Assembly (NCBI GenBank): GCA_946187345.1
Contig: CAMHQD010000017.1
Location: forward strand, 1 to 49,530
Direction of reading: 5' to 3'
DNA length: 49,530 nt
DNA from: an uncultured Porphyromonadaceae bacterium
GTDB taxonomy: Bacteria; Bacteroidota; Bacteroidia; Bacteroidales; Muribaculaceae
Part shown: piece after piece, positions 17,619-44,910 of the stretch
Numbering within the stretch: the first letter of the stretch is position 1
How the letters are laid out: every line of letters starts with the position of its first letter
The notes under the pieces: generated by a model
Seen by the model: only the letters and a program-made list of their open reading frames with translations
What the model was told of the DNA's origin: nothing
The model's database searches: none
Program-made: the position numbers and the translations under genes

Positions 17619-18206
17619 ATGAGACGGATGTTAATGTTGCTGGTGGCGGCGATGGCGTTGACGGCGACGGCCGGCAACGCGGTGGAGCGGCGTTTGGCGC
17701 AGATACGGCAGGCCTACGACGCGCGCTTGGCGATAATGGCCAATAAACCGTTTGAAGACCAGCCGTTTGACGAAATGACGGTGACCTTTGCCGACAACCG
17801 GGCCGGCATGGGCCTGAGCGAGAGCGCTATGACCTATCACTTCATCGGAGAGGAGCCCGCCGACGACACCGGCGAGCATCCGCGCGTGCTCTACTTTGTG
17901 CAGGGCACCCTCAGCCACGCCATGGGCTCCTATAACCATTACATTGAACTGCTGTACGATGCCGAAACGGGTGCGCCGATGTTCGCGCTGGTGAAATTGC
18001 AGTTTAACGATGACACTTCCACCGAGCACTCGTTGCGCGTCTACCTCGGTGAGAACGGCCGCGTGATCAAGACGGTGCCTGCCGACTCCGGCGACTTCTT
18101 CCGACGGGTGGAGCAGACGGCGTTTGTGACCGAGTTGACCGGCCTCGATGCCGTGTTGCGCCTCTTTGACCACCATCGCGCCGTCTTCAACACAGTCTTG
18201 AAATAA
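17619..18206 (+). CDS. secreted hypothetical protein
   Basis: A 195-residue protein with a signal peptide (MRRMLMLLVAAMALTATAG). The mature part alternates strands (MTYHFIGEEP, RVLYFVQGTLSH, YIELLYDAETGAPMFALVKLQ) and ends in helices. It resembles small periplasmic proteins of unknown function in Bacteroidales; I recognise no named domain. It starts 6 bases after the toxin stop and ends 48 bases before tatA, so co-transcription with both is likely. There is no twin-arginine motif of the SRRxFLK type; the two arginines at the start (MRRMLML) are not followed by the consensus. It is probably a Sec substrate. Confidence 0.6.
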   Translation: MRRMLMLLVAAMALTATAGNAVERRLAQIRQAYDARLAIMANKPFEDQPFDEMTVTFADNRAGMGLSESAMTYHFIGEEPADDTGEHPRVLYFVQGTLSHAMGSYNHYIELLYDAETGAPMFALVKLQFNDDTSTEHSLRVYLGENGRVIKTVPADSGDFFRRVEQTAFVTELTGLDAVLRLFDHHRAVFNTVLK

Positions 18207-18225
18207 ATAACTAAGAGTTCTAAAC

Positions 18226-18254
18226 TAACGACTAATAACTAATAACTAACGACT
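18226..18254 (+). repeat. TAACGAC/TAATAAC heptamer array abutting tatA
   Basis: TAACGAC, TAATAAC, TAATAAC, TAACGAC, then T and the tatA ATG. The array ends one base before the start codon, exactly as before nuoM. Confidence 0.85.
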
Positions 18255-18464
18255 ATGATACTCGGATTATTCGGAAACATAGGTACGCCCGAACTGCTGC
18301 TCATCGGGTTTATCGTACTGCTGCTGTTTGGCGGCAAGAAACTGCCGGAATTGATGCAGGGTCTCGGCAAAGGTGTGCGTGGCTTCAAAAAGGGCCTCAA
18401 CGACGTCAAGGAAGAGATTGACCGTCCCGTTGACACCCCCGACGACAAGGAAGATGCCAAATGA
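18255..18464 (+). CDS. tatA: Sec-independent protein translocase TatA
   Basis: A 69-residue TatA/E-type protein: N-terminal membrane segment ([23 protein letters not shown]) with the FG-K-LPEL hinge, an amphipathic helix ([20 protein letters not shown]) and an acidic tail. It forms the pore for folded, twin-arginine-signal proteins. It is followed by tatC after an unusually long, repeat-filled 384-base gap. No tatB is seen, as expected for Bacteroidetes, where TatA-TatC systems are usual. Confidence 0.92.
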
Positions 18465-18480
18465 TTTTTGAAATTTATAT

Positions 18481-18825
18481 CCCGTGAATTTTCGTGAATT
18501 TCCGTAAAATATTTTATTTCACCTAAATTCCGCAACTCGATATTTATCTCTCGAGAATTCTCGAAAATTTCCGAAAAAATATTGTATCTCGTAAATTTTC
18601 GTAAATCTACGTAAATTTAATTTGGTGATAATATTCTGTGAATAAAATATTTACGACAATTTACGCAAATTTACGAGAAAATTATTTTCGATAATTTTCG
18701 GAAATTTTCGTGAGAATTTTCAAGGTTGCGTATTTTAGGTTGTACTCAACAGAGGCCAAAGCCCCCTCCTTTAGGGGGGGAGCACGTTCCTTATTTATTC
18801 ACGATAATTCACGGAAATTCACGGG
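18481..18825. repeat. nested palindrome of 10-base CGTGAATTTT-type arrays between tatA and tatC
   Basis: Three nested inverted arrays. Outer: CCCGTGAATTTTCGTGAAT (from 18481) against ATTCACGGAAATTCACGGG (to 18825). Middle: CTCGAGAATTCTCGAAAATT (from 18550) against AATTTTCGGAAATTTTCGTG. Inner: CTCGTAAATTTTCGTAAAT (from 18588) against ATTTACGCAAATTTACGAG (to 18677); over 29 bases the inner arms match at 25. The right half also holds a CCCCCTCC/GGGGGGG hairpin (18762-18780). No gene is visible in this 384-base gap. Confidence 0.7.
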
Positions 18826-18848
18826 AGACAAATTCGTGATGAAAAATC

Positions 18849-19843: not shown

Positions 19844-19871
19844 TAGCACGTAGCATGTAGCACGTAGCATG
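19844..19871 (+). repeat. TAGCATG heptamer array in the nuoA leader
   Basis: TAGCACG, TAGCATG, TAGCACG, TAGCATG, then CAGCA. Lies in the expected 5' untranslated region of nuoA, 52 bases before the ATG. Confidence 0.85.
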
Positions 19872-19923: not shown

Positions 19924-20298
19924 ATGGATATATCAATATTCGGTATTCAGGGTACGACGCTCGCCGTGACGGCCGCCTTAACAGCTGTGGTTCTCGTGGT
20001 GGGTGCGCTCGTCATTGCCCGGTTGGTGGGCCCTCGCAGTTACACGCAGATGAAGGGTGAGCCTTATGAGTGCGGTATCCCGTCGCGTGGCGACTCGATG
20101 GCGCAGTTTCATGTGGGTTACTACTTGTTTGCGATTCTGTTCTTGATGTTCGACGTCGAGACGGTGTTTCTCTTCCCGTGGGCGGTGATTTGCCGCACGT
20201 TGGGCGACAGCGCGCTGCCGGCGGTGGGCACCTTCCTTGTTATTCTTGCATTGGGCCTGGCCTACGCCTGGCGGAAAGGAGCGTTGCGATGGAAGTGA
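19924..20298 (+). CDS. nuoA: NADH-quinone oxidoreductase subunit A
   Basis: A 124-residue membrane subunit of complex I with three hydrophobic helices. The signatures GEPYECGIPS (loop, conserved Cys) and FLMFDVETVFLFPW (second helix) are clear. It sits at the join of the peripheral and membrane arms near the quinone site. It overlaps nuoB by 10 bases, so the two are translationally coupled. First gene of the block; the promoter is at 19742. Confidence 0.95.
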   Translation: MDISIFGIQGTTLAVTAALTAVVLVVGALVIARLVGPRSYTQMKGEPYECGIPSRGDSMAQFHVGYYLFAILFLMFDVETVFLFPWAVICRTLGDSALPAVGTFLVILALGLAYAWRKGALRWK

Positions 20299-20885
20299 AA
20301 ATCAAGAGCATGAAGCACGAGGACTTCAAGGACAACGAGTATATCGACGGCCTCGTGGAGCAGTTGCGTGCCTCCGGCACCAACATCGTTGTGGGCAAAC
20401 TTGACCAACTGATTAACTGGGGTATCAGCAACTCGCTGTGGCCGTTCTGCTTCGGCACGAGTTGCTGCGCGATTGAGTTTATGTGCTTGGGCGCCGCGCG
20501 CTACGACATGGCACGTTTCGGCTTTGAGGTGGCTCGCAACAGCCCGCGTCAGGCCGATTATATTATGTGTCAGGGCACCATCACCTATCGCATGGCTCCG
20601 GTGTTGAAGCGCCTTTACGAGCAGATGGCCGAGCCGAAGTATGTGATCGCGTGTGGCGGCTGCGCCGTCAGTGGCGGTCCGTTCAAGAACAGTTATTGTG
20701 TCGTCAAGGGTATCGATGAGATTATCCCGGTGGACGTGTATGTGCCAGGCTGCCCGCCGCGTCCCGAGGCGTTCTTCTACGGCCTGATGCAGTTGCAGCG
20801 CAAAATCAAGGTGCAGAAATACTTCGGTGGCGTGAACCGCAAGGAGAAGTTTGACGAGGCCCTCGCGCAACCCGAAAGCATGTAG
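20289..20885 (+). CDS. nuoB: NADH-quinone oxidoreductase subunit B
   Basis: A 198-residue iron-sulfur subunit that carries cluster N2, the immediate electron donor to quinone. The four ligands are Cys59-Cys60 (GTSCCAIEF), Cys125 (GGCAVSGG) and Cys155 (VPGCPPRPE). The ATG at 20289 overlaps the end of nuoA; the frame is open further upstream, but this start fits the family. The last codons AGC ATG TAG are repeat units: the stop codon is the first TAG of a TAGCATG array. Confidence 0.95.
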   Translation: MEVKIKSMKHEDFKDNEYIDGLVEQLRASGTNIVVGKLDQLINWGISNSLWPFCFGTSCCAIEFMCLGAARYDMARFGFEVARNSPRQADYIMCQGTITYRMAPVLKRLYEQMAEPKYVIACGGCAVSGGPFKNSYCVVKGIDEIIPVDVYVPGCPPRPEAFFYGLMQLQRKIKVQKYFGGVNRKEKFDEALAQPESM

Positions 20886-20927
20886 CATGTAGCATATAGC
20901 ATATAGCATGTAGCATGTAGCATGTAG
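20883..20927 (+). repeat. TAGCATG heptamer array starting on the nuoB stop codon
   Basis: Six TAGCATR units plus a final TAG, 20883-20927. The first TAG is the nuoB stop. With period 7 the array puts TAG and ATG in all three frames. Confidence 0.9.
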
Positions 20928-20946
20928 TTAATAACCACAACCTCTA

Positions 20947-20980
20947 TACTTCGTACTTTGTACTTCGTACTTCGTACTTA
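20947..20980 (+). repeat. TACTTCG heptamer array before nuoCD
   Basis: TACTTCG, TACTTTG, TACTTCG, TACTTCG, TACTTA; ends 11 bases before the nuoCD start codon. Confidence 0.85.
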
Positions 20981-20991
20981 ATTTATTCAAC

Positions 20992-22638
20992 ATGGACGAG
21001 TTGAAAGACAAGATATTGGCGTTGTGCCCCCAAGCGGAGGCCGACACGAGCGGCGAGTTGCTGCTGGTGACGGTGCCCGATGCCGCGTGGCACGCGCTGG
21101 CCGTGGCGCTCAAGGAGCAACTGGGCTTCGACTACCTTACCGCCCTGGTGGGTATGGACTGGAAGACGTCGCTGGGCTGCTACTATTACTTGACCAATAG
21201 CGCGACGCAAGAGATGCTCCACGTGCGCGTCGAGACCGCCGACCGCAAGCAGCCCGTGCTGCACAGTGTGGCCGACGTGTGGAGCGTGGCCAACTTCCAG
21301 GAGCGCGAGGTCTACGACTTCTACGGCATCGCCTTCATCGGTCACCCCGATATGCGCCGCTTCTTCCTGCGCAACGACTGGGTGGGACACCCCCTGCGCA
21401 AGGACTACGACGCGAGCGACGAACTAAATCCGCTGCGCCTCACCGACGAGCAAAACGAGGACGACACGCAGCGCTGGGTCGAGGACGGGAAAGGTCGCGT
21501 GACCGTGGTCAAAGACAAGGTGTTCGCTGACGATGAGTATGTGATCAACGTCGGTCCGCAGCACCCCAGTACCCACGGCGTGATGCGCTACCGCGTGAGC
21601 CTCGACGGCGAGGTGGTGAAGAAGGTGGACGTCGTCAGCGGCTATATCCACCGTGGCATCGAAAAACTGTGTGAGAACCTCACTTACATGCAGACGCTGC
21701 TCTACACCGAGCGTATGGACTATATGAGCGCGATGCAGAACCGCCACTGCCTGTGCTTGTGCCTGGAGAAGGCCCTCGGCATCGAGGTGCCGCGCCGCGC
21801 CGAACTCATCCGCCTGATGATGGACGAGTTGATGCGCCTGAGCAGCCACCTGCTCAGTTACGGCTGCTTGACGATGGACCAGGGCGCGACCACGGCGTTC
21901 TTCTACGGCTTCCGTGACCGCGAGTTGATTTATGATATTTTCGACAAGACTTGCGGCGCGCGCATGTCGATGAGTTACCATACCATCGGCGGTGTGGTGG
22001 CCGATGTTCATCCCGACTTTGTGGCCGACGTGCGCCACGCCTGCGACGTGATCGAGAAGAACCTGGCGGAGTATCACCAGTTGTTCACCGGCAATGTGAT
22101 TGCCCGCAACCGTATGGTGGGCGTGGGACTGTTGAGCCGCGAGCAGGCGTTGGACTACGCCATTACAGGCCCGAGCGGCCGCGCCAGCGGCGTGAGTTGC
22201 GACGTGCGCAAGAAGCACCCCTACTCGCTCTACTCTGAGTTTGAGTTTGACGAGGTGACGCGCACCGAGGGCGACTCAATGGCGCGCTATATGGTGCGTA
22301 TGGATGAGATGGTGCAAAGCATCAAGATTTTGCGTCAGGCCTGCGATAAACTGGAGGCCGAGGAAGGCAATGAGTATTGCGCCAAGGTGCCCAAGGTGAT
22401 TAAGTTGCCCGAGGGACACTGGTATCAGCAAGTGGAGGCCAGCCGCGGCGCCTTTGGCGTCTATGTGGAGGCTGACCAGGAGAGCAAGCCCTTCCAGAAG
22501 CCTTATCGCATGCACTTCCAGAGTCCGTGCTTCAACCTGGTGGGAGTGGTGGACCTCACGTGCCGCGATAATCTGGTGGCGGACTTGATTACCATCACGG
22601 CATCTATCGACTTTGTGATTCCTGATATCGACCGCTAA
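20992..22638 (+). CDS. nuoCD: NADH-quinone oxidoreductase subunits C and D, fused
   Basis: A 548-residue natural fusion. Residues 1-150 are NuoC (30-kDa subunit; EREVYDFYGI at 104-113 and the signature HPLRKDY at 133-139). A ~35-residue acidic linker leads to NuoD (49-kDa subunit) from about 182 (INVGPQHPSTHGV, DVVSGYIHRGIEK, DQGATTAFFYGFRDRE, GPSGRASGVSCDVR). NuoD forms the quinone pocket with NuoB. C-D fusion is also known in E. coli and is usual in Bacteroidales. It lies between repeat arrays upstream and nuoH 16 bases downstream. Confidence 0.95.
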   Translation: MDELKDKILALCPQAEADTSGELLLVTVPDAAWHALAVALKEQLGFDYLTALVGMDWKTSLGCYYYLTNSATQEMLHVRVETADRKQPVLHSVADVWSVANFQEREVYDFYGIAFIGHPDMRRFFLRNDWVGHPLRKDYDASDELNPLRLTDEQNEDDTQRWVEDGKGRVTVVKDKVFADDEYVINVGPQHPSTHGVMRYRVSLDGEVVKKVDVVSGYIHRGIEKLCENLTYMQTLLYTERMDYMSAMQNRHCLCLCLEKALGIEVPRRAELIRLMMDELMRLSSHLLSYGCLTMDQGATTAFFYGFRDRELIYDIFDKTCGARMSMSYHTIGGVVADVHPDFVADVRHACDVIEKNLAEYHQLFTGNVIARNRMVGVGLLSREQALDYAITGPSGRASGVSCDVRKKHPYSLYSEFEFDEVTRTEGDSMARYMVRMDEMVQSIKILRQACDKLEAEEGNEYCAKVPKVIKLPEGHWYQQVEASRGAFGVYVEADQESKPFQKPYRMHFQSPCFNLVGVVDLTCRDNLVADLITITASIDFVIPDIDR

Positions 22639-22654
22639 TAAAACGAACAACGAT

Positions 22655-23737
22655 ATGTTTGATTTGACAATAGTGACTAACTGGGTGCACGATTTGCTGA
22701 CGGGGTGGATGCCCTCGATGCCGTGGCTGGTGACTACCATCGAGTGTGTGCTGGTGGGGCTGTTCCTGCTGGTGGCCTACTCGGTGATTGCGATGATTTA
22801 CATCATGTATGAGCGCTGGGTGTGTGCCTGGATACAGTGCCGCTTGGGCCCGAACCGTGTGGGTCCGAAGGGAACCCTGCAGATTTTTGCCGACGTGATC
22901 AAGATTCTGCAGAAGGAGATTATCCGCCTGTGGAGCACCGATAGGTTCTTGTTCTACCTGGCGCCGTTCCTGGTTGTGACGGCGAGCGTGCTGACGTTCG
23001 CGTGTCTGCCGTGGGGCAAGGGCTTCCAGATTATTGACTTCAACATCGGCGTGTTCTTCATCGTGGCCGTGTCGGGCATCGGTGTGCTGGGCGTACTGCT
23101 GGCCGGCTGGTCGAGCAATAGCAAGTATTCGCTGCTGGGCGCGATGCGCTCCGGCGCCCAGATGATCAGTTACGAGTTGAGCGTGGGCTTCAGCGTGCTG
23201 ACGATTGTGTGCCTTGCCGGCACAATGAGCATCACCGGCATCGTTGAGGCGCAGGCCGACGGATGGTTCCTTTTCAAGGGGCACCTGCCGGCACTGCTCG
23301 CGTTCATTATTTATATTATAGCGGCAAATGCCGAGAACAACCGCGGCCCGTTTGACTTGCCCGAGGCCGAGCATGAGTTGACGGCCGGTTACCACACCGA
23401 GTATTCAGGTATCCACTACGGCCTGTTCTATCTGGCCGAGTACCTGAACCTGTTTGTGGTGAGCGGCATCGCGGCGCTGTTGTTCCTGGGCGGATGGATG
23501 CCGTTGCACGTGCCGGGCTGGGAAGGCTTCAACACCGTGATGGACTATATCCCGAGCACGTTGTGGTTCCTGGGCAAGGCGTTCTTCATGACGTTTGTGT
23601 TCATGTGGATCCGCTGGTCGTTCCCGCGCGTGCGCATCGACCAACTGTTGGCTCTCGAGTGGCGCTACCTGATGCCCATCGGCCTGGTGAACCTGGTGGT
23701 GATGGCCGTGGTGGTGACCCAAGGTTGGCATTTCTAA
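22655..23737 (+). CDS. nuoH: NADH-quinone oxidoreductase subunit H
   Basis: A 360-residue membrane protein with about eight helices, forming part of the quinone channel and its link to proton pumping. Characteristic parts: ERWVCAWIQCRLGPNRVGPKG, the acidic loop ENNRGPFDLPEAEHELTAGYHTEYSG, and the C-terminal MWIRWSFPRVRIDQLLALEWRYLMPIGL. The ATP synthase genes begin 39 bases later, with an AATCGAA repeat array in the gap, instead of the expected nuoI. Confidence 0.95.
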   Translation: MFDLTIVTNWVHDLLTGWMPSMPWLVTTIECVLVGLFLLVAYSVIAMIYIMYERWVCAWIQCRLGPNRVGPKGTLQIFADVIKILQKEIIRLWSTDRFLFYLAPFLVVTASVLTFACLPWGKGFQIIDFNIGVFFIVAVSGIGVLGVLLAGWSSNSKYSLLGAMRSGAQMISYELSVGFSVLTIVCLAGTMSITGIVEAQADGWFLFKGHLPALLAFIIYIIAANAENNRGPFDLPEAEHELTAGYHTEYSGIHYGLFYLAEYLNLFVVSGIAALLFLGGWMPLHVPGWEGFNTVMDYIPSTLWFLGKAFFMTFVFMWIRWSFPRVRIDQLLALEWRYLMPIGLVNLVVMAVVVTQGWHF

Positions 23738-23740
23738 AAC

Positions 23741-23764
23741 AATCGAATAATCGAACAATCGAAA
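23741..23764 (+). repeat. 8-base AATCGAAN array between nuoH and atpD
   Basis: AATCGAAT, AATCGAAC, AATCGAAA; begins 3 bases after the nuoH stop and ends 12 bases before the atpD start. It fills the exact junction of nuo and atp genes. Confidence 0.85.
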
Positions 23765-23767
23765 TAA

Positions 23768-25282
<1,515 letters not shown>

Positions 25283-25358
25283 TTCTAATTCTAAGAATTC
25301 TAAGAATTCTAAGATTTCTAAGAATTCAAAGAGTTAGTAATACGGTCAACGGTAAACC
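25283..25358 (+). repeat. TTCTAAGAA nonamer array plus two GGTNAAC units between atpD and atpC
   Basis: TTCTAAGAA-type units with period 9 run from the atpD stop to about 25330. GGTCAAC-GGTAAAC follows at 25344-25357, 16 bases before the atpC ATG. Two different families are juxtaposed in one gap. Confidence 0.8.
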
Positions 25359-25373
25359 TTTCATAATAAGACG

Positions 25374-25610
25374 ATGACACTCAAGATTATATCTGCCGAA
25401 CAGGTGGAGTTTGACGGCGAGGTGTCGCAGGTGACGCTGCCCGGCGAGTTGGGCAGTTTCCAGGTGCTTCGCGGCCACGCGGCGATGATTGCCGCGTTGC
25501 AGCCCGGCACGGCGACCTACACTCCGGTTGACGGCGCGACAGTGAGCCGTGACATTGCCGGCGGTGTGGCCGATGTGAAGAACGATGTGGTGAGCGTGTG
25601 CCTCTTCTGA
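25374..25610 (+). CDS. atpC: F1Fo ATP synthase subunit epsilon (short form)
   Basis: A 78-residue protein with only the N-terminal beta-sandwich domain (LKIISAEQVEFDGEVSQVTLPGELGSFQVLRGHAAMIAALQPG). The C-terminal helix pair that inhibits ATP hydrolysis in E. coli (total about 138 residues) is absent. Short epsilon subunits are known in Bacteroidetes, so this is probably not a truncation. It links gamma to the c-ring. Confidence 0.9.
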   Translation: MTLKIISAEQVEFDGEVSQVTLPGELGSFQVLRGHAAMIAALQPGTATYTPVDGATVSRDIAGGVADVKNDVVSVCLF

Positions 25611-25636
25611 GGTGTGTGCCTTGCCCGACAACAAAT

Positions 25637-25688
25637 TTCGTTTTTCGTTTTTCGTTTTTCGGTAAACGGTTAACGGTCAACGGTAAAC
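25637..25688 (+). repeat. CGTTTTT and GGTNAAC heptamer arrays between atpC and atpB
   Basis: Three CGTTTTT units (25639-25659) run directly into GGTAAAC, GGTTAAC, GGTCAAC, GGTAAAC (25661-25688). The atpB ATG follows 15 bases after the last unit. Confidence 0.9.
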
Positions 25689-25703
25689 TTTTCACAAAAG
25701 ATA

Positions 25704-26780
25704 ATGAAGAAACTGATTCCTGCAATAGTGGCGCTGGTGATAGTGGCGCTGATGGCGTTGGGCTATCACCATAGCGGGCAGCATCCCGAGGAGGCGTCCG
25801 AGCCGCTGAACGTCAAGGCGACCCTCTTCGGTCACTTGGGCGACGCCTACGGCTGGGAAGTGCCGTTCAACCACAGCACCCGCATTCCGTTGCCGGTGAT
25901 TGTGCGCGACCATGCCGGCTCGTGGCACGTGTTCAGCAGCGACCGCGTGACCGCTGGCGCCACCTACGATCGCTTCAAGATTGTCAGTGACCCCGACAGC
26001 GAACTCAGCGGCAAGATTGTTGAGGTGCTTGGCGATGGTCGCGAGGTGCGTCCGTGGGACTTGTCGATTACCAAGAATGTGGCGTGCATTTTCATCGCGG
26101 CATTGATTGTGATCGCGGTGGTGATGTCGCTGCGAAGGTGGTATGACCGCGAGGGCATGAAGGCCCCGCGCGGCGGCCGCGGCTTTGTGGAGTTGATAGT
26201 GGACTTTGTCTACTTCGACACCATCCGCCCCATCATGGGCAAGCACGCGCCACGGTTTGCTCCCTACTTGTTGACGGCGTTTTTCATGATTCTGACGCTG
26301 AACCTGTTGGGACTGATTGTGATTTTCCCCGGCGGAGCCAACGTCACGGGCAATATCTCCGTGACAATGGTTTTGGCGCTGTGCACGTTTGCCTTGACGA
26401 CATTCAACGGCACTCGCGAGTATTGGAAGGAGATTTTCTGGCCTGAGGTGCCGGTGTGGCTCAAGTGCCCGGTGCCCCTGATGCCGTTTATCGAGTTCCT
26501 GGGCATCTTCACCAAGCCGTTGGCGCTGATGATTCGATTGTTCGCCAATATGATGAGTGGCCACATGGTGGTGATTGTGTTGGTGACGTTTATCTTCCTG
26601 TTCGCCCAGATGTTCGGCACGGCCGTGGGTGGCATGACGGTAGTGTTCTCGATGGCGTTCTCGCTGTTTATGCTGCTGCTCGACACACTGATCAGCTTTA
26701 TCCAGGCCTATGTGTTCACGCTGCTCTCGGCGCTGTTCATCTCGATGGCGCTCGTTGAGCCTCACCACGTTAGTGAGTAG
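25704..26780 (+). CDS. atpB: F1Fo ATP synthase subunit a
   Basis: A 358-residue membrane subunit forming the proton half-channels. Relative to E. coli (271 residues) it has a long N-terminal extension with a signal-like hydrophobic start (MKKLIPAIVALVIVALMALG) and a ~90-residue periplasmic stretch, typical of Bacteroidetes. The essential arginine is in KPLALMIRLFANMMSGH. The following helices (VVIVLVTFIFLFAQMFG, AFSLFMLLLDTLISFIQAYVFTLLSALFI) match the family. It ends 48 bases before atpE. Confidence 0.95.
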   Translation: MKKLIPAIVALVIVALMALGYHHSGQHPEEASEPLNVKATLFGHLGDAYGWEVPFNHSTRIPLPVIVRDHAGSWHVFSSDRVTAGATYDRFKIVSDPDSELSGKIVEVLGDGREVRPWDLSITKNVACIFIAALIVIAVVMSLRRWYDREGMKAPRGGRGFVELIVDFVYFDTIRPIMGKHAPRFAPYLLTAFFMILTLNLLGLIVIFPGGANVTGNISVTMVLALCTFALTTFNGTREYWKEIFWPEVPVWLKCPVPLMPFIEFLGIFTKPLALMIRLFANMMSGHMVVIVLVTFIFLFAQMFGTAVGGMTVVFSMAFSLFMLLLDTLISFIQAYVFTLLSALFISMALVEPHHVSE

Positions 26781-26816
26781 ATAAAGAAATAATAACAAAC
26801 AACAATAACATTTTAA

Positions 26817-27071
<255 letters not shown>

Positions 27072-27083
27072 CACCCGAGCGCC

Positions 27084-27581: not shown

Positions 27582-27589
27582 AAGTGTGT

Positions 27590-27694
27590 TATGAAAGGTT
27601 GACCGTTGACCGTTGACCGAAGACGGAAGACGCAAACGATAGGCGACAGACAAAAACCGGTAAACGGTTAACAGTAAACGGTAAACCTTTCACA
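27590..27694. repeat. inverted heptamer arrays between atpF and atpH
   Basis: Left: TGAAAGG, then GACCGTT, GACCGTT, GACCGAA, GACGGAA, GACGCAA (27601-27635). Right: GGTAAAC, GGTTAAC, AGTAAAC, GGTAAAC (27659-27686), then CTTTCA. The ends pair as TGAAAGGTTGACCGTTGAC with GTAAACGGTAAACCTTTCA (near-perfect), so the gap can fold into one hairpin. The atpH ATG follows 20 bases after the last unit. Confidence 0.85.
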
Positions 27695-29917: not shown

Positions 29918-29949
29918 CTCGCGGTAGAGGCACAAAACTAATAGAAATC

Positions 29950-29984
29950 GGTCAACGGTCAACGGTAGACGGTCAACGGTAAAC
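29950..29984 (+). repeat. GGTNAAC heptamer array before atpG
   Basis: GGTCAAC, GGTCAAC, GGTAGAC, GGTCAAC, GGTAAAC, then TTTTTATAAC; the atpG ATG is 15 bases after the last unit. Confidence 0.9.
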
Positions 29985-30878: not shown

Positions 30879-30884
30879 TTGAAT

Positions 30885-30912
30885 GCATAATTCATAATGC
30901 ATAATTCATAAT
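30885..30912 (+). repeat. KCATAAT heptamer array between atpG and nuoI
   Basis: GCATAAT, TCATAAT, GCATAAT, TCATAAT, then TAAA and the nuoI ATG four bases later. A minus-strand relative lies at 44902-44933. Marks the second nuo/atp junction. Confidence 0.9.
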
Positions 30913-30916
30913 TAAA

Positions 30917-31485: not shown

Positions 31486-32004
31486 ATGGAATCTGTAGGT
31501 AATATATTAGTGTACTGCGTGGTTGCGTTGGTGATTATCGTGTGCTCGGTGCTCACGGTGACCACCCGCAAGATATTGCGCTCGGCAACCTATCTGCTCT
31601 TCACTCTCTTCGCCACGGCAATTCTCTATTTCCAACTTGACTATCCGTTGCTTGGAGCGGTGCAGATTGCCGTTTATGCCGGTGGCATTGTGGTGCTGTT
31701 TGTTTTTGCCATCCTGCTCACCCACAAGCCCGGCGAGGATGCCGATGCGCTCAAGACGCATCGCCGCGTGTTGGGCTCTGTGGCGGCGTTGCTCACCGTG
31801 GCGTTGCTTGGCGGCGCTCTGTTCACCTTCGCGCCGCTGTGTGGCAAAGCGCTGCCGGCCGACATGGCCGACGTGAGCATCGAGAATATCGGCCATTTTC
31901 TGCTGAGTACCGACAAGTTTGGCTACCTGCTGCCGTTCGAGGCCATCAGCGTGCTGCTGCTGGCGTGCATCATCGGTGGTGTGGTGATTGCCCGTCGCCG
32001 CTAA
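31486..32004 (+). CDS. nuoJ: NADH-quinone oxidoreductase subunit J
   Basis: A 172-residue membrane subunit with five hydrophobic helices. The family part ATYLLFTLFATAILYFQLDYPLLGAVQIAVYAGGIVVLFVFAILLT contains the conserved pi-bulge region. The ATG at 31486, two bases after the nuoI stop, is chosen over a GTG at 31480 that overlaps nuoI. Its stop TAA (32002-32004) is the first triplet of a TAACGAC array. Confidence 0.94.
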   Translation: MESVGNILVYCVVALVIIVCSVLTVTTRKILRSATYLLFTLFATAILYFQLDYPLLGAVQIAVYAGGIVVLFVFAILLTHKPGEDADALKTHRRVLGSVAALLTVALLGGALFTFAPLCGKALPADMADVSIENIGHFLLSTDKFGYLLPFEAISVLLLACIIGGVVIARRR

Positions 32005-32035
32005 CGACTAACGACTATCGACTAATAACTACGAT
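32002..32035 (+). repeat. TAACGAC heptamer array from the nuoJ stop to the nuoK start
   Basis: TAACGAC, TAACGAC, TATCGAC, TAATAAC, TACGAT, then the nuoK ATG. The first TAA is the nuoJ stop codon and the last partial unit touches the nuoK ATG, so the whole junction is array. Confidence 0.9.
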
Positions 32036-32347: not shown

Positions 32348-32354
32348 ATTATAA

Positions 32355-32481
32355 TGAAAGGTTGAGAGGCTAAGGGTTGAGAGGTTGAGCCTCGCGCTAT
32401 CGCGCTCGGAAATACTGCATTTCTTCCCATTTGCGTCAGCAAATGGCTCAACCTCTCAACTTCTAAACGCTAACCCTTTCA
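32355..32481. mobile_element. MITE-like element between nuoK and nuoL (copy 2)
   Basis: Bounded by TGAAAGG (32355-32361) and CCTTTCA (32475-32481). Inside, GTTGAGAGGTTGAGCC (32376-32391) is the exact inverse of 32445-32460. The core holds CTCGCGCTATCGCGCTCGG and CATTTGC-GTCA-GCAAATG hairpins, as in the copy at 10261-10431. There is no reading frame of its own; it sits inside the operon without separating it visibly. Confidence 0.7.
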
Positions 32482-34505: not shown

Positions 34506-34539
34506 AAGGTTTAGAGGTTTAGAGGTTTAGAGGTTTAGC
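34503..34539 (+). repeat. 8-base GGTTTAGA array after nuoL
   Basis: The nuoL stop TGA begins TGAAAGG, followed by four GGTTTAGA-type octamers (34508-34539). Same TGAAAGG opening as the elements at 10261, 27590 and 32355. Confidence 0.85.
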
Positions 34540-34546
34540 GAATTTC

Positions 34547-34596
34547 TAACATCTAACATCTAACATCTAATATCTAACGACTATCGACTAACGACT
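34547..34596 (+). repeat. TAACATC/TAACGAC heptamer array abutting nuoM
   Basis: TAACATC three times, TAATATC, TAACGAC, TATCGAC, TAACGAC, then T and the nuoM ATG. Seven units in exact register; same ending (TAACGAC-T-ATG) as before tatA. Confidence 0.92.
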
Positions 34597-36126
34597 ATGA
34601 CGATATTCAACAATATACTCATCTACTTTGTCATCATCCCGCTGCTCACGCTGGGAGGATTGGCATTGTGTACCAACGCCGGGCGCGGCATACGCGCCAT
34701 ACGCGCTGTGGCCGTGACGGGAGCAACCGCATTGGTGGCTCTGGCGGCTTATCTGGTCTACTACTTTGTGACGGAGCGTGCCGCCGGAGTGCAAGACGCG
34801 ATGCTGCTGCGCAGCGACGTGATGTGGTACGAGCCGTTCAACATCAAACTCGCCCTGGGCGTTGACGGCGTGAGCGTGGTGATGATTGCCTTGAGCGCCA
34901 TCATCGTCTTTGCCGGCGTGTTTGCCTCATGGAAGATGAATCCGCTGCCCAAGCAGTTCTTCCTGTGGTTCTTCTTGCTGTCGACCGGTGTGTTTGGCTT
35001 CTTCATCTCGATTGACTTGTTCACGATGTTCATGTTCTATGAGGTGGCTCTGATTCCGATGTATCTGCTCATCGGCGTGTGGGGCAGCGGCAACAAGACC
35101 TATAGCGCGATGAAGTTGACGCTGATGCTCATGGGTGGCAGCGCGCTGCTCATGCTCGGCATCATCGGCATCTATTTCCACTCGGCTCCCGAGGGTTCGC
35201 CGCTGACGATGAATATCCTCGAGATTGCCGAGGCCAACGCCATTCCGCACTCGTGGCAGATGTATCTGTTCCCGTTGACGTTTGTCGGCTTTGGTGTGCT
35301 GGGCGCGATGTTCCCGTTCCACACATGGTCGCCTGATGGTCACGCGTCGGCTCCGACGGCGGTGTCGATGTTGCACGCGGGCGTGCTGATGAAGTTGGGC
35401 GGCTACGGCTGCTTCCGCATCGCCATCTGCCTGATGCCGTTCGCCGCCAACGAGTTGGCGTGGATTTTCCTGCTGCTGACGGGCATCAGCGTGGTCTATG
35501 GCGCTTTCAGCGCGTGTGTGCAGACCGACTTGAAGTATATTAACGCCTATAGTTCCGTGAGCCACTGCGGTATGGTGCTATTCGCCATCCTGATGTTCAA
35601 CACCACGGCGATGACCGGCGCGGTGCTGCAGATGTTGAGCCACGGCTTGATGACGGCACTCTTCTTCGCGCTCATCGGTATGATTTACGGCCGCACCCAC
35701 ACCCGCGACATCCAGAAGATGGGTGGCCTGATGCAAATCATGCCTTATCTGGGCGTGGGCTACGTGATAGCCGGTATGGCATCGTTAGGCTTGCCGGGTC
35801 TGAGCGGTTTTGTGGCCGAGATGACGATTTTCGTGGGCTCGTTTATGCACGAGGATACGTTCCGCCGCGTGCTCACAATCGCCGGAACGAGTTCGATTGT
35901 GATTACCGCGGTCTATATCCTGCGTGTGGTTGGCAAACTGCTCTTCGGCCCGGTGGTCGATGAGCATCACCGCCAGTTGACCGACGCCACGTGGGAGGAA
36001 AAACTGAGCACGGCCACGCTCATCGTGTGTGTGGCGGCAATCGGCTGCTTCCCCAACTTCTTTGTTGACATCATCAGCGGCAGTTTTGAGCCGGTAGTGA
36101 AGGCCCTTAGCGCCGCCGCGATGTAA
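34597..36126 (+). CDS. nuoM: NADH-quinone oxidoreductase subunit M
   Basis: A 509-residue antiporter-like proton-pumping subunit. Motifs: DLFTMFMFYEVALIPMYLLIGVWG, FPFHTWSPDGHASAPTAVSMLHAGVLMKLGGYG, and the central lysine/histidine helix region DLKYINAYSSVSHCGMVLF ... MLSHGLMTALFFALIG. Length and motifs are standard. A 45-base gap to nuoN contains a weak CATAGAAACCATAGAAATCC repeat. Confidence 0.95.
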   Translation: MTIFNNILIYFVIIPLLTLGGLALCTNAGRGIRAIRAVAVTGATALVALAAYLVYYFVTERAAGVQDAMLLRSDVMWYEPFNIKLALGVDGVSVVMIALSAIIVFAGVFASWKMNPLPKQFFLWFFLLSTGVFGFFISIDLFTMFMFYEVALIPMYLLIGVWGSGNKTYSAMKLTLMLMGGSALLMLGIIGIYFHSAPEGSPLTMNILEIAEANAIPHSWQMYLFPLTFVGFGVLGAMFPFHTWSPDGHASAPTAVSMLHAGVLMKLGGYGCFRIAICLMPFAANELAWIFLLLTGISVVYGAFSACVQTDLKYINAYSSVSHCGMVLFAILMFNTTAMTGAVLQMLSHGLMTALFFALIGMIYGRTHTRDIQKMGGLMQIMPYLGVGYVIAGMASLGLPGLSGFVAEMTIFVGSFMHEDTFRRVLTIAGTSSIVITAVYILRVVGKLLFGPVVDEHHRQLTDATWEEKLSTATLIVCVAAIGCFPNFFVDIISGSFEPVVKALSAAAM

Positions 36127-36171
36127 ACATAGCATCATAGAAACCATAGAAATCCTAGTAAAAATAACGAT

Positions 36172-37629
36172 ATGGATTATTCCCAGTTCTTAATGATGCC
36201 GCAGGAGATTGGCCTGCTGACGGTTTTCCTGTTGGTATTCATCTATGATACCTTTATGCCCGAGCGCTCACAGCGCGCTTTGCCGGCGTTCACGGCCATC
36301 ATTTTCGGTATCTTCACCGCGCTGACGATGTGCCCGTGTCTGGCCAAGGGAGGTCAGGCCTTTGGCGGCATGTTTGAGGCAAACGACGCCACATGGGCTA
36401 TCAAACTCATTTTAAGTGTCGGCACGTTCCTGGTGCTGCTGATGGCGACGAAGTGGAGCAACTCGGAGTTCATCAGCGTGCGTCGCGGCGAGTTTTACGA
36501 GTTGCTGCTGCTCACACTGTTTGGCATGTTCCTGATGGTGAGCGCGCGCCACTTCCTGTTGTTTGTCATCGGCTTAGAGACGGCTTCGCTGCCCATCGCC
36601 GCGTTGGCGGCCTTTGAGAAACGTCGTTACGAGAGCCATGAGGCGGCCGCGAAATATCTCTTCACCGCCATCTTCTCGAGCGCGATTCTGCTGATGGGCA
36701 TATCGTTAGTGTATGGCATCGGTGGCACGCTCTACTTCAACGAACTGGCGGTGGCTCTGACCATCGGCCGCAGCGCGTTGCTCATCACGGCGTTGGCGTT
36801 TGTCATCGCCGGCGTGGGCTTCAAGTTGTCGCTCGTGCCGTTCCATTTGTGGACGGCAGACGTTTATCAAGGCGCTCCGACGGCTGTCACGGCTTATCTC
36901 TCGGTGATCAGCAAGGGTGCCGCGGCATTCTCGTTCCTGATTATCTTGGCGCAGGTGTTCGGCGCGGCTTACTCTGACGTGTGGCAGTGGATGCTCTACG
37001 CGTTGATTATCCTCACCATCACCATCGGCAATCTCTTTGCCATGCGTCAGCGCAACCTCAAACGTTTCCTCGCCTTCTCGTCGATTTCGCAGGCCGGCTA
37101 CATCATGCTGGGCGTTATCGCGGGCAATGCCGTGGGTATGGCGTCGCTGATGTTCTACGTGCTGGTGTATGTGTTCAGCAACCTGGCTGCCTTTGGCGTT
37201 ATTATGGCTGTTGAGCGCGAGAGCGGCAAGACGACCATCGACGACTATAACGGCCTGTTCCGCACCAACCCGTGGTTAGCGTTCACGATGATGCTGGCGA
37301 TGTTCTCGCTGGGTGGTATTCCGCCGTTTGCGGGTTTCTTCAGCAAGTTCTTCATCTTTGTGGGCGCGTGCCAGACGGGCAGTGTGGCTATCTACGTGCT
37401 CGTGTTCATCGCGTTGTTGAACACCATCATCTCGCTCTACTACTATCTGCTGGTGGTCAAGGCTATGTTCATCAGTCAGGACGACTGTGTTGTGCCGGCC
37501 TTCAAGAGCGCGTGTGGCGAGCGTCTGGCGATGGTGCTCTGCGTGCTGGGCATCGTGTTCATCGGCTTGGCAAGTTGCCTCTACGCCGGCTTGAACGAGG
37601 CAAGCGCTGCCGCCTTCCCCGCCTTCTGA
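36172..37629 (+). CDS. nuoN: NADH-quinone oxidoreductase subunit N
   Basis: A 485-residue antiporter-like proton-pumping subunit, last gene of the block. Motifs: FLLFVIGLETASLPIAALAAFEKR, GVGFKLSLVPFHLWTADVYQGAPTAVTAYLSVISKGAAAF, LKRFLAFSSISQAGYIMLG and FSLGGIPPFAGFFSKFFIF. It is followed after 32 bases by a strong terminator. Confidence 0.95.
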   Translation: MDYSQFLMMPQEIGLLTVFLLVFIYDTFMPERSQRALPAFTAIIFGIFTALTMCPCLAKGGQAFGGMFEANDATWAIKLILSVGTFLVLLMATKWSNSEFISVRRGEFYELLLLTLFGMFLMVSARHFLLFVIGLETASLPIAALAAFEKRRYESHEAAAKYLFTAIFSSAILLMGISLVYGIGGTLYFNELAVALTIGRSALLITALAFVIAGVGFKLSLVPFHLWTADVYQGAPTAVTAYLSVISKGAAAFSFLIILAQVFGAAYSDVWQWMLYALIILTITIGNLFAMRQRNLKRFLAFSSISQAGYIMLGVIAGNAVGMASLMFYVLVYVFSNLAAFGVIMAVERESGKTTIDDYNGLFRTNPWLAFTMMLAMFSLGGIPPFAGFFSKFFIFVGACQTGSVAIYVLVFIALLNTIISLYYYLLVVKAMFISQDDCVVPAFKSACGERLAMVLCVLGIVFIGLASCLYAGLNEASAAAFPAF

Positions 37630-37661
37630 CCATAGGGTACAGTACCGTACAGAATAGAGAG

Positions 37662-37696
37662 ACCGCGAATTACGCCAAATCAGCGTAATTCGCGGT
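37662..37696 (+). terminator. terminator of the nuo-atp operon
   Basis: A perfect 13-bp stem, CCGCGAATTACGC (37663-37675) with GCGTAATTCGCGG (37683-37695), extended by an outer A-T pair. It has a 7-base loop and is followed by TTTGTAATT. The rest of the 339-base gap (37697-37968) contains no gene that I can see, only the promoter-like site at 37892. Confidence 0.75.
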
Positions 37697-37891
37697 TTGT
37701 AATTAAAAGGGCCTTGCCGGTGCTTGGAAAATCTATCAAAAATCTTTTAATGTGCTTTATTTGTTGACTTTAAATGCCGGAGGCTGCCGGGCCCTAAATT
37801 AGACACCGTTAGCGGCTGCAGAGGCCAAGTCGCCCGTCATCGTGTATCGGAAATATTAACTTTTTTTAATGGGAGGACGGTGATTTTTTTG

Positions 37892-42590: not shown

Positions 42591-43403
42591 TCAGTCGATG
42601 AGGTCGTTGCGCGTGGGCAGGGCGACGATGTTGAGGTCGTGGGAGCGGATAAAGTCAACGATCATGTCGCGCTCGGGACACTCGGGGATGTCATGCTCAA
42701 TGCGCTTGAGGGCGTTGAACACGCTGGTGCCGCTCTCATAGATGTGGCGGTAGCAGCGGGCAATGTCGTCGATGATGTCCTCGCTCTTGTCGCCAAAGTA
42801 CTTGCTGTGGCGCATTATCATCGCGTTGACGCCGCAGTAGGCGACCGGATTATGGGCCATGACGGTGAACGGTGGCACATTGCCGCTGATGCGGCATCCG
42901 CCCTTGACCATCACCCATGAGCCGATGTCGCTGCGCGGGTGGATGAGCGCGTTGCCGGCAAGGATGGTATAACTGTTGATGTGGGCGTAGGGCGAGACCT
43001 GCGCGCCATTGCCGATCACGCAGGTGTCCTCGACAACAGCGTCGTGCATGATGTGGCTCTCGGCCATGACAAAGCATTTGTTGCCCACTCGCGTGCCGCC
43101 CTCGGCACTAATACCGCGGTTGAGGATGGTGTGCTCGCGGATAGTCGTCTCGTCGCCGACGTAGCAGAATGACGGCTCGCCGTTCCAGCGAAAGTCCTGC
43201 GGCTCGGCGGCGATGATGGCGCCGTTGTAGATCTTGCTGCGGCAGCCGATGCGCGCGCCGTTGAGCACGCTCACGTAGGGGTAGATGATGGTGCCGTCGC
43301 CAATCACGGTGTTCTTGCTGATGAAGGCGAACGGGTGGATAGTGACGTCGTTGCCGATGCGGGCATCGGGATCGACGTGGGCCAGAGGACTGATATTGCT
43401 CAT
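42591..43403 (-). CDS. lpxA: acyl-ACP--UDP-N-acetylglucosamine O-acyltransferase (LpxA-like)
   Basis: A 270-residue left-handed beta-helix acyltransferase with hexapeptide repeats (residues ~1-190) and a helical C-terminal domain. The catalytic His is His120 in SHIMHD (equivalent to His125 of E. coli, HIAHD). The substrate motif EPQDFRWNGE and the NVPPFTVMAHNPVAYCGVN loop fit LpxA. It would start lipid A synthesis. In Bacteroidales lpxA commonly follows the lpxC-fabZ fusion; this copy instead follows an efflux operon, so it may be a second, divergent copy with other acyl or sugar specificity. It is 73 bases downstream of the OMF gene, across a heptamer array. Confidence 0.85.
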   Translation of the reverse strand: MSNISPLAHVDPDARIGNDVTIHPFAFISKNTVIGDGTIIYPYVSVLNGARIGCRSKIYNGAIIAAEPQDFRWNGEPSFCYVGDETTIREHTILNRGISAEGGTRVGNKCFVMAESHIMHDAVVEDTCVIGNGAQVSPYAHINSYTILAGNALIHPRSDIGSWVMVKGGCRISGNVPPFTVMAHNPVAYCGVNAMIMRHSKYFGDKSEDIIDDIARCYRHIYESGTSVFNALKRIEHDIPECPERDMIVDFIRSHDLNIVALPTRNDLID

Positions 43404-43416
43404 AGTAACAGTTGTA

Positions 43417-43472
43417 TCTAAAATCTAAATTCTAACATCTGAAATCTAAATTCTAACATCTAACATCTAACA
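43417..43472. repeat. TCTAAMA heptamer array between the OMF and lpxA genes
   Basis: Eight heptamers in register (TCTAAAA, TCTAAAT, TCTAACA, TCTGAAA, TCTAAAT, TCTAACA three times). It starts 4 bases after the OMF stop codon as read on the minus strand and ends 13 bases before the lpxA start. The TAACATC frame links it to the array before nuoM. Confidence 0.92.
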
Positions 43473-43476
43473 TCCA

Positions 43477-44910
43477 CTACCGGCCGCCGCCGAGGGCCTG
43501 GTAGAGGTTGATAACGCTGGTGTTGATATTCATCTTGACCAGTTCGAGTTGGATTTGCGCCTGAAGGAGTTGCTGCTGGGCGGTAATCACCTCAAGGTAG
43601 GTCGCGTTGGCGAGGTTCATCAAGTCACGGTTGTAGTCCACGGCGAGTGCCATGCAGTCGCGCTGCGCCTGCACGTCGGCCAACTTACTGCTATAGGAAC
43701 TGATGGCGGCCAGAGCGTCGCTCACCTCGGCGCGCGCGTCGAGGATGCTGTAACTGAAGTTGTTGAGAGCCTGCTGCTGCGTGGCTTTGGCGGCCTTGAG
43801 CGTTGCGATATTGCGTCCGCGGTTAAAGATGGGCGCCGTGAGCGAGCCGGCAAGGTTCAGCAGCCACTTTGCCGGGTCGAATACGGTGCCGCCCACAAGG
43901 GTGCCGTAGGCTCCCGTGGCGGTGATGTTGAGTTGCGGATAGAAGTTGGCGCGCGCCACGTTGGTGGCGTAGAACGCTTTGGCGAAGTCCTGCTCGGCGG
44001 CGCGCACGTCAGGTCGCGCGGCGAGGTAGTTCATCGGCACGCCGTCGTGGAGATTGGCCGGCAGCGAGAGCGCGCCACCCAGTGTGACGGCCCACTGACG
44101 CGGCTCGGTGCCCAGCAGCAGCGACATCGTGTTCTCGGCCTGAGTGATTGAACGGTTGATGTCGGGGATGGCCGCGCGCACGCTGTGGTAGTTGGCCTGG
44201 GCCTGAACCACAGCCACCTCGGTGTAGCGTCCGGCGATCTTCATGTCGCGCATCATCTGCACGCTTTGTTCCCACAATCGCAGGTTCTCGTTGTAGATAT
44301 TCAGTTGGTTGCGCAGCGACACGAGTGTGTAGTAGGTTGTGGCAACGCCGGCGATAATCTGGCTTTGGACGGCCTGGGCGTAGGCCTCACTCTGGATAAC
44401 AGAACTCTCGGCGCTGCGCTTGTTGTTGGTGAGTTGGCCGAAGATGTCAACCTGCCAACTGACGGTGACGGGCAGTTGCCATCCCCAGTCCATGCCGTCA
44501 ATCCCGCTAATCTTGCTGCCGGCAAAGTTGGGTGAGAAGTTCACCGAAGGCAGAAAACTGAGTTTGGCCCCTTGGAGTTGGGCGCGGGCGATGTCGATGT
44601 TGAGTTTGGCGTTCTGCAAGTCTTTGTTGCTGTCGAGGGCACGCTGGATGTAACTTTGCAACAACGGGTCGGTGAACACCTGCTGCCACGGCAGGTTGCC
44701 CAAGGCTGTGCTGTCGACCGGCGCCTGGAGGGCTTCGGCGTAGTCCTTGATGATGGGCTCACCGGTAGGCGTCTCATACTTTTGGTAGAGGCCGCATGCT
44801 GTCAGCAAAGCGCAAAGCGCGAAGCACGAAGTGCGAAGCGCGACGACACCAAAGCGGCGAGGCCGCTTTGCACCGCACTCCTTTATCTGATTGATATATA
44901 AATTATGCAT
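43477..44910 (-). CDS. RND efflux outer-membrane channel lipoprotein (OprM/TolC family)
   Basis: A 477-residue outer-membrane factor with two OEP repeats (about 65-260 and 280-475). It has a lipoprotein signal, CFALCALLTACG, with Cys39. Family features include YQKYETPTGE, WQQVFTDPLLQSYIQRALDSNKDL and RPDVRAAEQDFAKAFYATNVARANFYPQLNI. It forms the exit duct for the RND pump encoded just upstream. The only in-frame start (44910) lies inside a CATAATG array, and residues ~24-35 of the signal peptide are encoded by a RAAGYRC heptamer array, so the 5' end of this gene is built from repeat DNA. Confidence 0.88.
   Translation of the reverse strand: MHNLYINQIKECGAKRPRRFGVVALRTSCFALCALLTACGLYQKYETPTGEPIIKDYAEALQAPVDSTALGNLPWQQVFTDPLLQSYIQRALDSNKDLQNAKLNIDIARAQLQGAKLSFLPSVNFSPNFAGSKISGIDGMDWGWQLPVTVSWQVDIFGQLTNNKRSAESSVIQSEAYAQAVQSQIIAGVATTYYTLVSLRNQLNIYNENLRLWEQSVQMMRDMKIAGRYTEVAVVQAQANYHSVRAAIPDINRSITQAENTMSLLLGTEPRQWAVTLGGALSLPANLHDGVPMNYLAARPDVRAAEQDFAKAFYATNVARANFYPQLNITATGAYGTLVGGTVFDPAKWLLNLAGSLTAPIFNRGRNIATLKAAKATQQQALNNFSYSILDARAEVSDALAAISSYSSKLADVQAQRDCMALAVDYNRDLMNLANATYLEVITAQQQLLQAQIQLELVKMNINTSVINLYQALGGGR
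44807..44841 (-). repeat. heptamer array inside the OMF signal-peptide codons
   Basis: On plus: AAAGCGC, AAAGCGC, GAAGCAC, GAAGTGC, GAAGCGC (five units in exact register). On minus it encodes A-L-R-T-S-C-F-A-L-C-A of the lipoprotein signal. Confidence 0.88.
44850..44870. repeat. CAAAGCGGC palindrome inside the OMF gene
   Basis: CAAAGCGGC (44850-44858), GAG, GCCGCTTTG (44862-44870), encoding residues ~14-20 (AKRPRRF). Same palindrome as in the DUF4421 gene (41306-41326) and between lpxA and DUF4421 (42572). Confidence 0.8.

Follow-up and report, generated by a model that had tools for sequence, protein, structure and literature searches.

Tandem heptamer arrays at gene borders of a Muribaculaceae genome: vocabulary, orientation and turnover

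Intergenic arrays of tandem heptamers are a known kind of bacterial repeat, and Paludibacter, one of the genera in which they have been described, belongs to the Bacteroidales. The cyanobacterial STRR heptamers are also similar, being tandem repeats of several sequences dispersed within one genome. Here we analyse such arrays in a 49,530-nt stretch of DNA (the window), which is contig 17 (CAMHQD010000017.1) of the 2.79-Mb, 131-contig genome GCA_946187345.1 of an uncultured Muribaculaceae bacterium (the own genome). An earlier note, made from the letters of this stretch alone, had described period-7 arrays between its genes and knew of no such system in the Bacteroidales. That statement is not supported, since PMC4679880 (MacGregor 2015) reports TAACTGA heptamer arrays in Beggiatoaceae, Cyanobacteria and five Bacteroidetes, Paludibacter included. 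These arrays are intergenic, mostly forward, and end a few nucleotides before a start codon. Some overlap the end of the upstream gene, and they are intermixed with related heptamers, differ mostly by 7 nt in length between close Cyanothece strains and, in two Bacteroidetes, have no counterpart at the corresponding junction of close relatives; Microcystis is noted to hold various repeating heptamers, and stop codons in the forward sense are discussed (PMC4679880). In all these respects they are like the arrays described below. They were proposed as sites of a post-transcriptional regulator (PMC4679880).

Other repeats share part of this description. Long simple-sequence repeats (SSRs) have units of 5-11 nt, and slippage has been proposed for them (Mrazek 2007 via PMC4679880; PMC4060949); heptanucleotides are the most abundant of them in most genomes, and a 7-nt polymerase contact was put forward for heptanucleotide repeats (Mrazek 2007, as cited in PMC4679880). 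The GGGNATC repeats of Xanthomonas and Nostoc are non-coding heptamers that separate aligned genes, keep one orientation close to stop codons and vary in copy number, and the same source cites three tandem heptanucleotides in Calothrix (PMC4692102). Finally, GTAG-type repetitive extragenic palindromes (REPs), linked to Y1 transposases (REP-associated tyrosine transposases, RAYTs), are dispersed, lie close to 3' ends and often supply a TAG stop (PMC3733652, PMC8266576).

The arrays studied here depart from each of these. In the main genome of PMC4679880 related heptamers are rarely or never direct repeats, whereas the present genome has several families side by side, with different roles at starts and at stops. 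Some of its arrays serve as hairpin arms, and within a single genus the lexicon changes; TAACTGA units do occur in some arrays of other species of the genus. The long-SSR surveys, in the portions available, describe no border-specific orientation, lexicon turnover or element structure. GGGNATC units are G-quadruplex units that prefer four copies (PMC4692102), whereas most unit classes here have no G runs; GGG does occur in the GAGGGTT class (AACCCTC on the other strand), to which 5 of 108 own arrays belong. REPs are palindromes of 20-40 bp, unlike the TAGCATG and TAACGAC arrays, which have no proven Y1 link. Among open-licence papers, screened by titles and the starts of abstracts, we found none on such arrays in this bacterial family or on turnover of a heptamer vocabulary within a genus. 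Three things look new: an orientation rule for both borders that spans families, the replacement of the lexicon from one congeneric species to another, and the comparison of sister species site by site.

Period-7 arrays and their vocabularies

We sampled 849.5 kb of the own genome, namely the window and 40 further stretches, and called genes with a simple codon-usage finder built for this analysis, which missed some small genes. The sister species, G021, has about 96% DNA identity to the own genome across this region; together with the single-contig genome G004 and with G074 it belongs to a set of 101 genomes in which the genus was searched.

In the window, Tandem Repeats Finder returned 58 rows with period 7 the most frequent, and in a lag scan lag 7 accounted for 554 nt, each of the other lags from 2 to 13 for 0-50 nt. 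The 483 gaps of the own sample held 105 period-7 arrays, compared with 1.5 expected under an order-1 Markov model and 4.15 under an order-2 model fitted per gap. Periods 8, 9 and 10 gave 24, 25 and 50 arrays (1.35-3.2 expected), period 10 being the second peak, and there were 5 arrays of period 6 and none of periods 4 and 5. Tandem units within the 5-11-nt range of long SSRs are thus present above chance, at periods 7-10. By a strict test period 7 covered 15.8 nt/kb of the intergenic DNA and 0.5 nt/kb of the coding DNA, and 108 of the 119 own arrays were intergenic against 11 coding, which agrees with the mostly non-coding placement of long SSRs whose unit is not a multiple of three. Coverage by periods 2-6 was near zero, so that nothing points to a loss of mismatch repair; periods 8-10 were present.

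These results bear out part of what the earlier note had claimed: period 7 is enriched in intergenic DNA, the arrays are largely confined to gaps, unrelated units share both period and position, and every unit family it listed occurs in the span 18204-43479 (GGTTGAG there as an 8-mer array). Its statement that most gene junctions are filled went too far. The arrays are real, and period-7 arrays stand at 10 of the 25 junctions of the span, and five more have an 8-10-mer array alone; across the own sample, 86 of 479 gaps hold a period-7 array. Arrays also lie beyond the span, for example at 1124, 1354, 7467, 8326 and 44902.

The arrays draw on a limited set of words. Forty unit classes account for 107 of the 108 own intergenic arrays, and TAACTGA is not among these classes. 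A search for three TAGCATG units with up to two mismatches gave 83 overlapping matches in the own genome (one for the reversed control), 186 in the sister, one in a further genome and none in the other 98 of the 101 genus genomes; with one mismatch allowed, 2 of 297 genomes drawn from the family had matches. The own sample alone holds 23 TAGCATG arrays. TAACGAC in three copies reached further (49 matches in the own genome, 82 in the sister, 1-11 in each of 24 others; 26 of 101 in all). AACTGAA, a word first met at a relative's nuoB junction, had three-copy matches in 72 of 101 genomes, up to 350 (G074), and none in the own and sister genomes, a search that would miss a pure TAACTGA array. Period-7 coverage in G074 was 17.8 nt/kb, with a set of words of its own; G004 showed 0.0 nt/kb under the strict test in 400 kb, and three low-complexity intergenic arrays under a looser one. 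In a few relatives the nuo-atp junctions hold arrays too, built of different words. With lexicons that differ by lineage and such coverage in G074, the arrays are therefore a habit common to many species of the genus, with lineage dialects, and not a property of one junction.

The idea of one family per junction was rejected, since the same families recur across many gaps. With it go two statements of the note, that each gap tends to have its own family and that unit sequences are junction-specific: the lexicon is limited and dispersed genome-wide. As to a phage vehicle, exact threefold TAGCATG was found in no viral contig; an exact 22-nt TAACGAC array was found in three.

Orientation and turnover at gene borders

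Shine-Dalgarno sequences are lacking in this phylum, and the native leaders of the bacteria studied here are A/C-rich and contain AAC. The context of Bacteroidetes leaders is treated in PMC6847099. A downstream gene could be seen for 41 TAACGAC arrays (21 own, 20 sister). Every one of these arrays runs in the sense of its gene, and for 31 the start codon falls between -12 and +20 nt relative to the array end, the placement reported for TAACTGA arrays, forward and right upstream of start codons. TAGCATG arrays mark the other border. The upstream gene has the same sense in 54 of 61 (31/34 own, 23/27 sister) and in 48 (28 own, 20 sister) the array starts at the stop codon of that gene (-20 to +12); no antisense array among the 61 comes as close as 12 nt to a 3' end. 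The counts for these two families used no coding filter and include some arrays sampled because they match the pattern, and the all-family border counts that follow excluded arrays more than 60% coding.

The start-side bias extends across families and lineages. AAC outnumbered GTT in the sense strand of start-side units by 15:1 of 31 in the own genome, 8:0 of 15 in the sister, 7:0 of 11 in the nuo loci of relatives and 15:0 of 16 in G074. The leaders of G004 are AAC-rich in sense as well (AAACAA, for example, 19 vs 2), and because they share this bias we consider that the arrays echo the native leader. On the stop side, the units carry a stop triplet in sense in 44 of 48 own arrays against 20 in antisense, and in the sister in 21 of 21 arrays against 12.

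Between the own genome and its sister, 22 heptamer sites could be compared. Eleven differ by whole heptamers (7, 14, 21, 28 or 35 nt) between near-identical flanks, which is the copy-number change by whole units known from long SSRs; five are unchanged in length and two differ otherwise (L009:14275, L009:15885). At the remaining four (19844, 25634, 27595 and 29946) most of the sequence is unrelated although the neighbouring genes are still alike, and none of these four replaced gaps offers a clean empty site. At one start codon the family itself is swapped, TAACGAC in the sister standing for GGTCAAC in the window. In 40 of 52 arrays neighbouring units resemble each other more closely than units do over all pairs, and in 7 less closely. 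The whole-unit changes and the alike neighbours support growth by slippage, which the note had suggested, or by unequal exchange, the molecular step itself being one that we infer.

Own sites with no two-sided sister sequence were excluded from this comparison. Its 22 sites come from 23 scripted rows, of which 43415 and 43445 were merged as one 28-nt change. Following the alignments, sites 20947 and 18224 (the latter for its heptamer part) were counted as unchanged despite the script's label of whole-heptamer change, and sites 8326 and 32000 as whole-heptamer changes, a 1-nt difference lying outside the array. Three aligned sites that failed the flank test stand outside the 22: L215/L201 (7 nt), window 7467 (unchanged) and L214:2616 (unchanged).

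The 9-mer block adjoining the array at 18224..18255 is 63 nt longer in the sister, the gap 27592..27692 has unrelated content there, and of the gap holding the array at 29946..29984 the final part is conserved. In named relatives the nuo-atp junctions are mostly array-free; the window gaps at ten junctions sum to 771 nt, against 388 nt for the relatives' medians, and at the junction 27582-27706 none of 48 named relatives has an array, with a median gap of 6 nt against 125 in the window.

Hairpins, mobile elements and the explanations weighed

Arrays of GGTTGAG and of GGTNAAC are often paired as the arms of an inverted-repeat element whose ends are TGAAAGG/CCTTTCA; the GGTTGAG elements have inner palindromes as well. 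This goes against the note's view that the unrelated units argue against a selfish element. The short palindromic body typical of REPs and of bacterial interspersed mosaic elements (BIMEs) is thus present in these composites, and was not seen for TAGCATG and TAACGAC arrays. Two such window elements fold with z of -4.37 and -7.50; three other array gaps gave 0.09, -1.07 and -0.79. Median z for gaps with and without arrays (the latter a random quarter) was -2.77 and -1.7 in the own genome and -1.33 and -0.53 in G074. Folding is not generally better with arrays, and the proposal that every gap is a hairpin was rejected; RNA-level insulation between cistrons, which the note had offered as a function, could apply only where a gap folds as a hairpin, as a subset of them do. 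Inverted array pairs within a gap, at up to one mismatch, numbered 7 in the own genome (three sharing one array in L179) against a shuffled mean of 1.4 (maximum 5), and 1 against 0.6 in the sister; at up to two mismatches they numbered 7 against 2.3 (maximum 6), 2 against 1.2 in the sister and 6 against 2.06 (maximum 6) in G074. The excess is modest.

The reading that we favour, at a probability of roughly 0.6, is that the arrays are lineage-specific long SSRs, mostly heptamers, at gene borders, which slip, disperse and are kept where RNA-level punctuation tolerates or favours them. Under it, a few words would come to occupy many gaps of one genome, as they do here. Arrays would gain and lose whole units, as between the sister species, with replication slippage or unequal exchange the simplest likely cause, and entire gap contents would be replaced within a few percent of divergence, as seen at four sites. 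An array would persist where its sense in RNA is tolerable or useful, which may be the selective reason behind the position and orientation rules: start-side arrays are like the native A/C-rich, AAC-containing leaders, TAGCATG arrays start out from the stop codon of the gene before them, and stop-side units of the own and sister genomes mostly have a stop triplet in sense. Some families, GGTTGAG and GGTNAAC, double as arms of REP-like hairpin elements, and complementary arm arrays could then change length yet stay complementary. The copying of units from gap to gap might conceivably run through ectopic recombination or gene conversion, aided by the REP-like elements.

Several observations weigh against this reading. 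Slippage alone leaves the recurrence of one word in tens of gaps unexplained, and no dispersal step was observed. The border rules have exceptions: 30 of the 109 own arrays lie away from both borders, 7 of the 61 TAGCATG arrays have no same-sense upstream gene, and one orthologous TAGCATG pair (L189, L213) is antisense at 16-17 nt from a 3' end, just outside the 12-nt limit. Some of the own and sister arrays are orthologues of each other, so that the totals of 41 and 61 include cases that are not independent. The sense bias of stop triplets fails in G074 (17 vs 18 of 21), where the stop side is GTT-rich (13 vs 2 of 21), and in the relatives' nuo loci (11 vs 10 of 17), and for this reason stop-triplet supply was rejected as a general rule. 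A Kozak-like A at -3 was likewise rejected, the A at this position of TAACGAC starts being not clearly raised (16/31 vs a 0.44 baseline). Lastly, the median folding z is reversed in the sister, -1.39 with arrays against -2.69 without.

It is also conceivable, though we would not bet on it, that the arrays amount to a fast-evolving RNA-level punctuation of gene borders, with lineage vocabularies, start and stop words fixed in sense, complementary arrays serving as slip-tolerant intercistronic hairpins, and a copying process that spreads words and overwrites earlier ones.

Alternatively, the arrays could be parts of mobile elements of the REP, BIME or MITE (miniature inverted-repeat transposable element) kind, moved by Y1 (RAYT-type) transposases, with tandem growth secondary. 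We hold this to be unlikely. Besides the GGTTGAG and GGTNAAC arms with their TGAAAGG ends, many dispersed palindromes populate these genomes: several, among them CCCCCTCCTTTAGGAGGGGG, GACGGTTCTTGTGTTTC...GAGACACAAGAACCGTC and TGTAGGGGCAGAATAAATTCTGCCCCTACA, are abundant across intergenic DNA (own-genome stretches L014, L020, L023, L027, L174, L184), palindromes of this dispersed kind match 27.0 of 148.7 kb of array-masked intergenic DNA at least once, and one palindrome, both strands counted, has 42, 12 and 0 matches in the own (849.5 kb), sister (293 kb) and G004 (400 kb) samples. A GC palindrome precedes a TAACGAC-type array at three of its nine copies in the own and sister samples. Y1_Tnp genes, which go with REPs and BIMEs, number 8 in the own genome and 10 in the sister and occur in 92 of the 101 genus genomes; G004, however, has a Y1 gene yet none of the strict period-7 coverage. 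No array was found near three of the eight own Y1 genes, the only three checked (1.5 kb round two genes, with 1.1 kb on one side at a stretch end, and the 2.0-kb locus L232). Like GTAG-type REPs near 3' ends (PMC3733652), TAGCATG arrays often supply a TAG stop, and 15 of 60 run into GTAG plus a hairpin, as compared with 80 of 548 other intergenic GTAG sites, a weak case for reading TAGCATG arrays as GTAG heads of REPs set in tandem. Inspection by eye showed neither a constant flank nor a palindrome proper to the TAGCATG and TAACGAC arrays, just modules common to some, and the want of a clean empty site in the replaced gaps also tells against transposition. A 71-nt GC-rich unit present twice at 16737-16878, which contains the palindrome-like GCCCCGTCAGGGGC, is probably another dispersed intergenic element.

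An improbable account is that each family provides repeated binding sites for its own sequence-specific RNA- or DNA-binding regulator. The strict orientation and position of the arrays, and the function proposed for forward TAACTGA arrays before start codons (PMC4679880), would fit it. A conserved regulator per family is nevertheless hard to reconcile with a lexicon that is replaced between congeneric species, with the family swap at one start codon, and with window arrays that adjoin the housekeeping nuo, atp and tat genes. Still less can be said for an independent birth of every array by local slippage, with a polymerase that favours 7-nt steps and no copying between gaps. The period peak, the whole-unit changes and the proposed 7-nt polymerase contact (Mrazek 2007, as cited in PMC4679880) agree with it, but a few words dominate each genome, TAGCATG having 23 own arrays and no match in 98 of 101 genus genomes, and we judge it very unlikely. 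That the arrays are assembly artefacts, as the 131-contig draft and the coverage of 0.0 nt/kb in single-contig G004 might suggest, is scarcely credible, since a second assembly (G021) shares many of these arrays, at matching sites and between near-identical flanks, G074 obeys the same start-side rule with a different lexicon, and random artefacts would not follow orientation.

The window and what the arrays mean

Table 1. Arrays and related elements of the window, with the state of the corresponding site in the sister species where available.
Feature	Positions	Strand	Context and sister species
TAACGAC-type array	18224..18255	+	ends at tatA start codon; start-side, sense
Gap with degenerate 10-mer arrays, TTTACGTAAA-like and CGTGAATTT types	18465..18848		
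TAGCATG array	19844..19871	+	upstream of nuoA; unrelated sequence in sister
TAGCATG array	20875..20929	+	contains nuoB stop codon; sister two units shorter
TACTTCG array	20947..20982	+	upstream of nuoCD
8-mer array	23741..23768	+	between nuoH and ATP synthase beta-like gene
9-mer array AATTCTAAG	25287..25332	+	sister 9 nt shorter
CGTTTTT joined to GGTNAAC	25634..25688	+	start-side of ATP synthase A-chain gene; entire gap replaced in sister
Inverted pair GGTTGACC...GGTAAACC	27592..27692	+	ends TGAAAGG/CCTTTCA; hairpin fold z -4.37
GGTCAAC array	29946..29984	+	start-side of ATP synthase gamma gene; mostly replaced in sister
KCATAAT array	30882..30915	+	gamma gene/nuoI gap; sister 14 nt shorter
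TAACGAC array	32000..32031	+	nuoJ/nuoK gap; sister one unit longer
Composite inverted-repeat element TGAAAGG-(GGTTGAG)n-hairpin-hairpin-(CTCAACC)n-CCCTTTCA	32355..32481		z -7.50
8-mer array AGGTTTAG	34507..34538	+	stop side of nuoL
TAACATC then TAACGAC	34541..34598	+	runs into nuoM start codon; sister three units longer
TCTAAMA/TAACATC arrays	43415..43477	-	between two minus-strand genes; sister 28 nt shorter
Facing TAGCATG arrays (1124-1160, 1354-1384)	1124..1384		at stops of two convergent genes; outside span 18204-43479
TAGCATG array	7467..7499	-	at stop codon of minus-strand gene; equal length in sister
TAGCATG array	8326..8359	-	at stop codon of minus-strand gene; sister two units longer
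Composite GGTTGAG inverted-repeat element, second copy in window	10261..10430		

The genes tested in the span, a set that leaves aside those at 26838 and 27707, encode TatA, TatC, NuoA, NuoB, NuoCD, NuoH, NuoI, NuoJ, NuoK, F-type ATP synthase subunits and three subunits of the NuoL-N type. Most of the 80 best named matches by NuoB are metagenome-assembled genomes that carry the label Muribaculaceae, Porphyromonadaceae, Prevotellaceae or Bacteroidales, and rumen or faeces is the source of many. The ATP synthase genes (23777-30878) sit within the nuo cluster (window 20289-37629), with nuoH on one side and nuoI on the other, and the nuoH-to-beta junction was found in 59 of the 80 loci from relatives, a set that includes truncated loci. 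Right after the last nuo gene, at about 37660-37700, the inverted repeat ACCGCGAATTACGC...GCGTAATTCGCGGT appears by eye terminator-like. Upstream of the tat genes, a YafQ-family toxin gene (17331-17612; region 16954-17612) is preceded by a 126-aa reading frame with no Pfam match, both missed by the gene finder, and a TAGCATG array at 17030 adjoins this gene pair. Elsewhere in the own genome, L028:1-979 holds 37-nt direct repeats (GTCTTAATCCTTTTTGGTTTAGAGAGGGGTATAGTAG) with unlike spacers, CRISPR-like in layout.

So far an oddity noted in a few scattered bacteria, heptamer repeats here become a system that offers natural replicates in number. The genus offers sister species that share or swap arrays at the same junctions, and different vocabularies under one start-side orientation, so that it becomes testable why heptamers dominate the long repeats of bacteria and whether arrays in gaps have an effect on translation or on the stability of mRNA. 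In these genomes the DNA between genes can change far more quickly than the genes themselves, which matters for strain typing and for the annotation of promoters and leaders.

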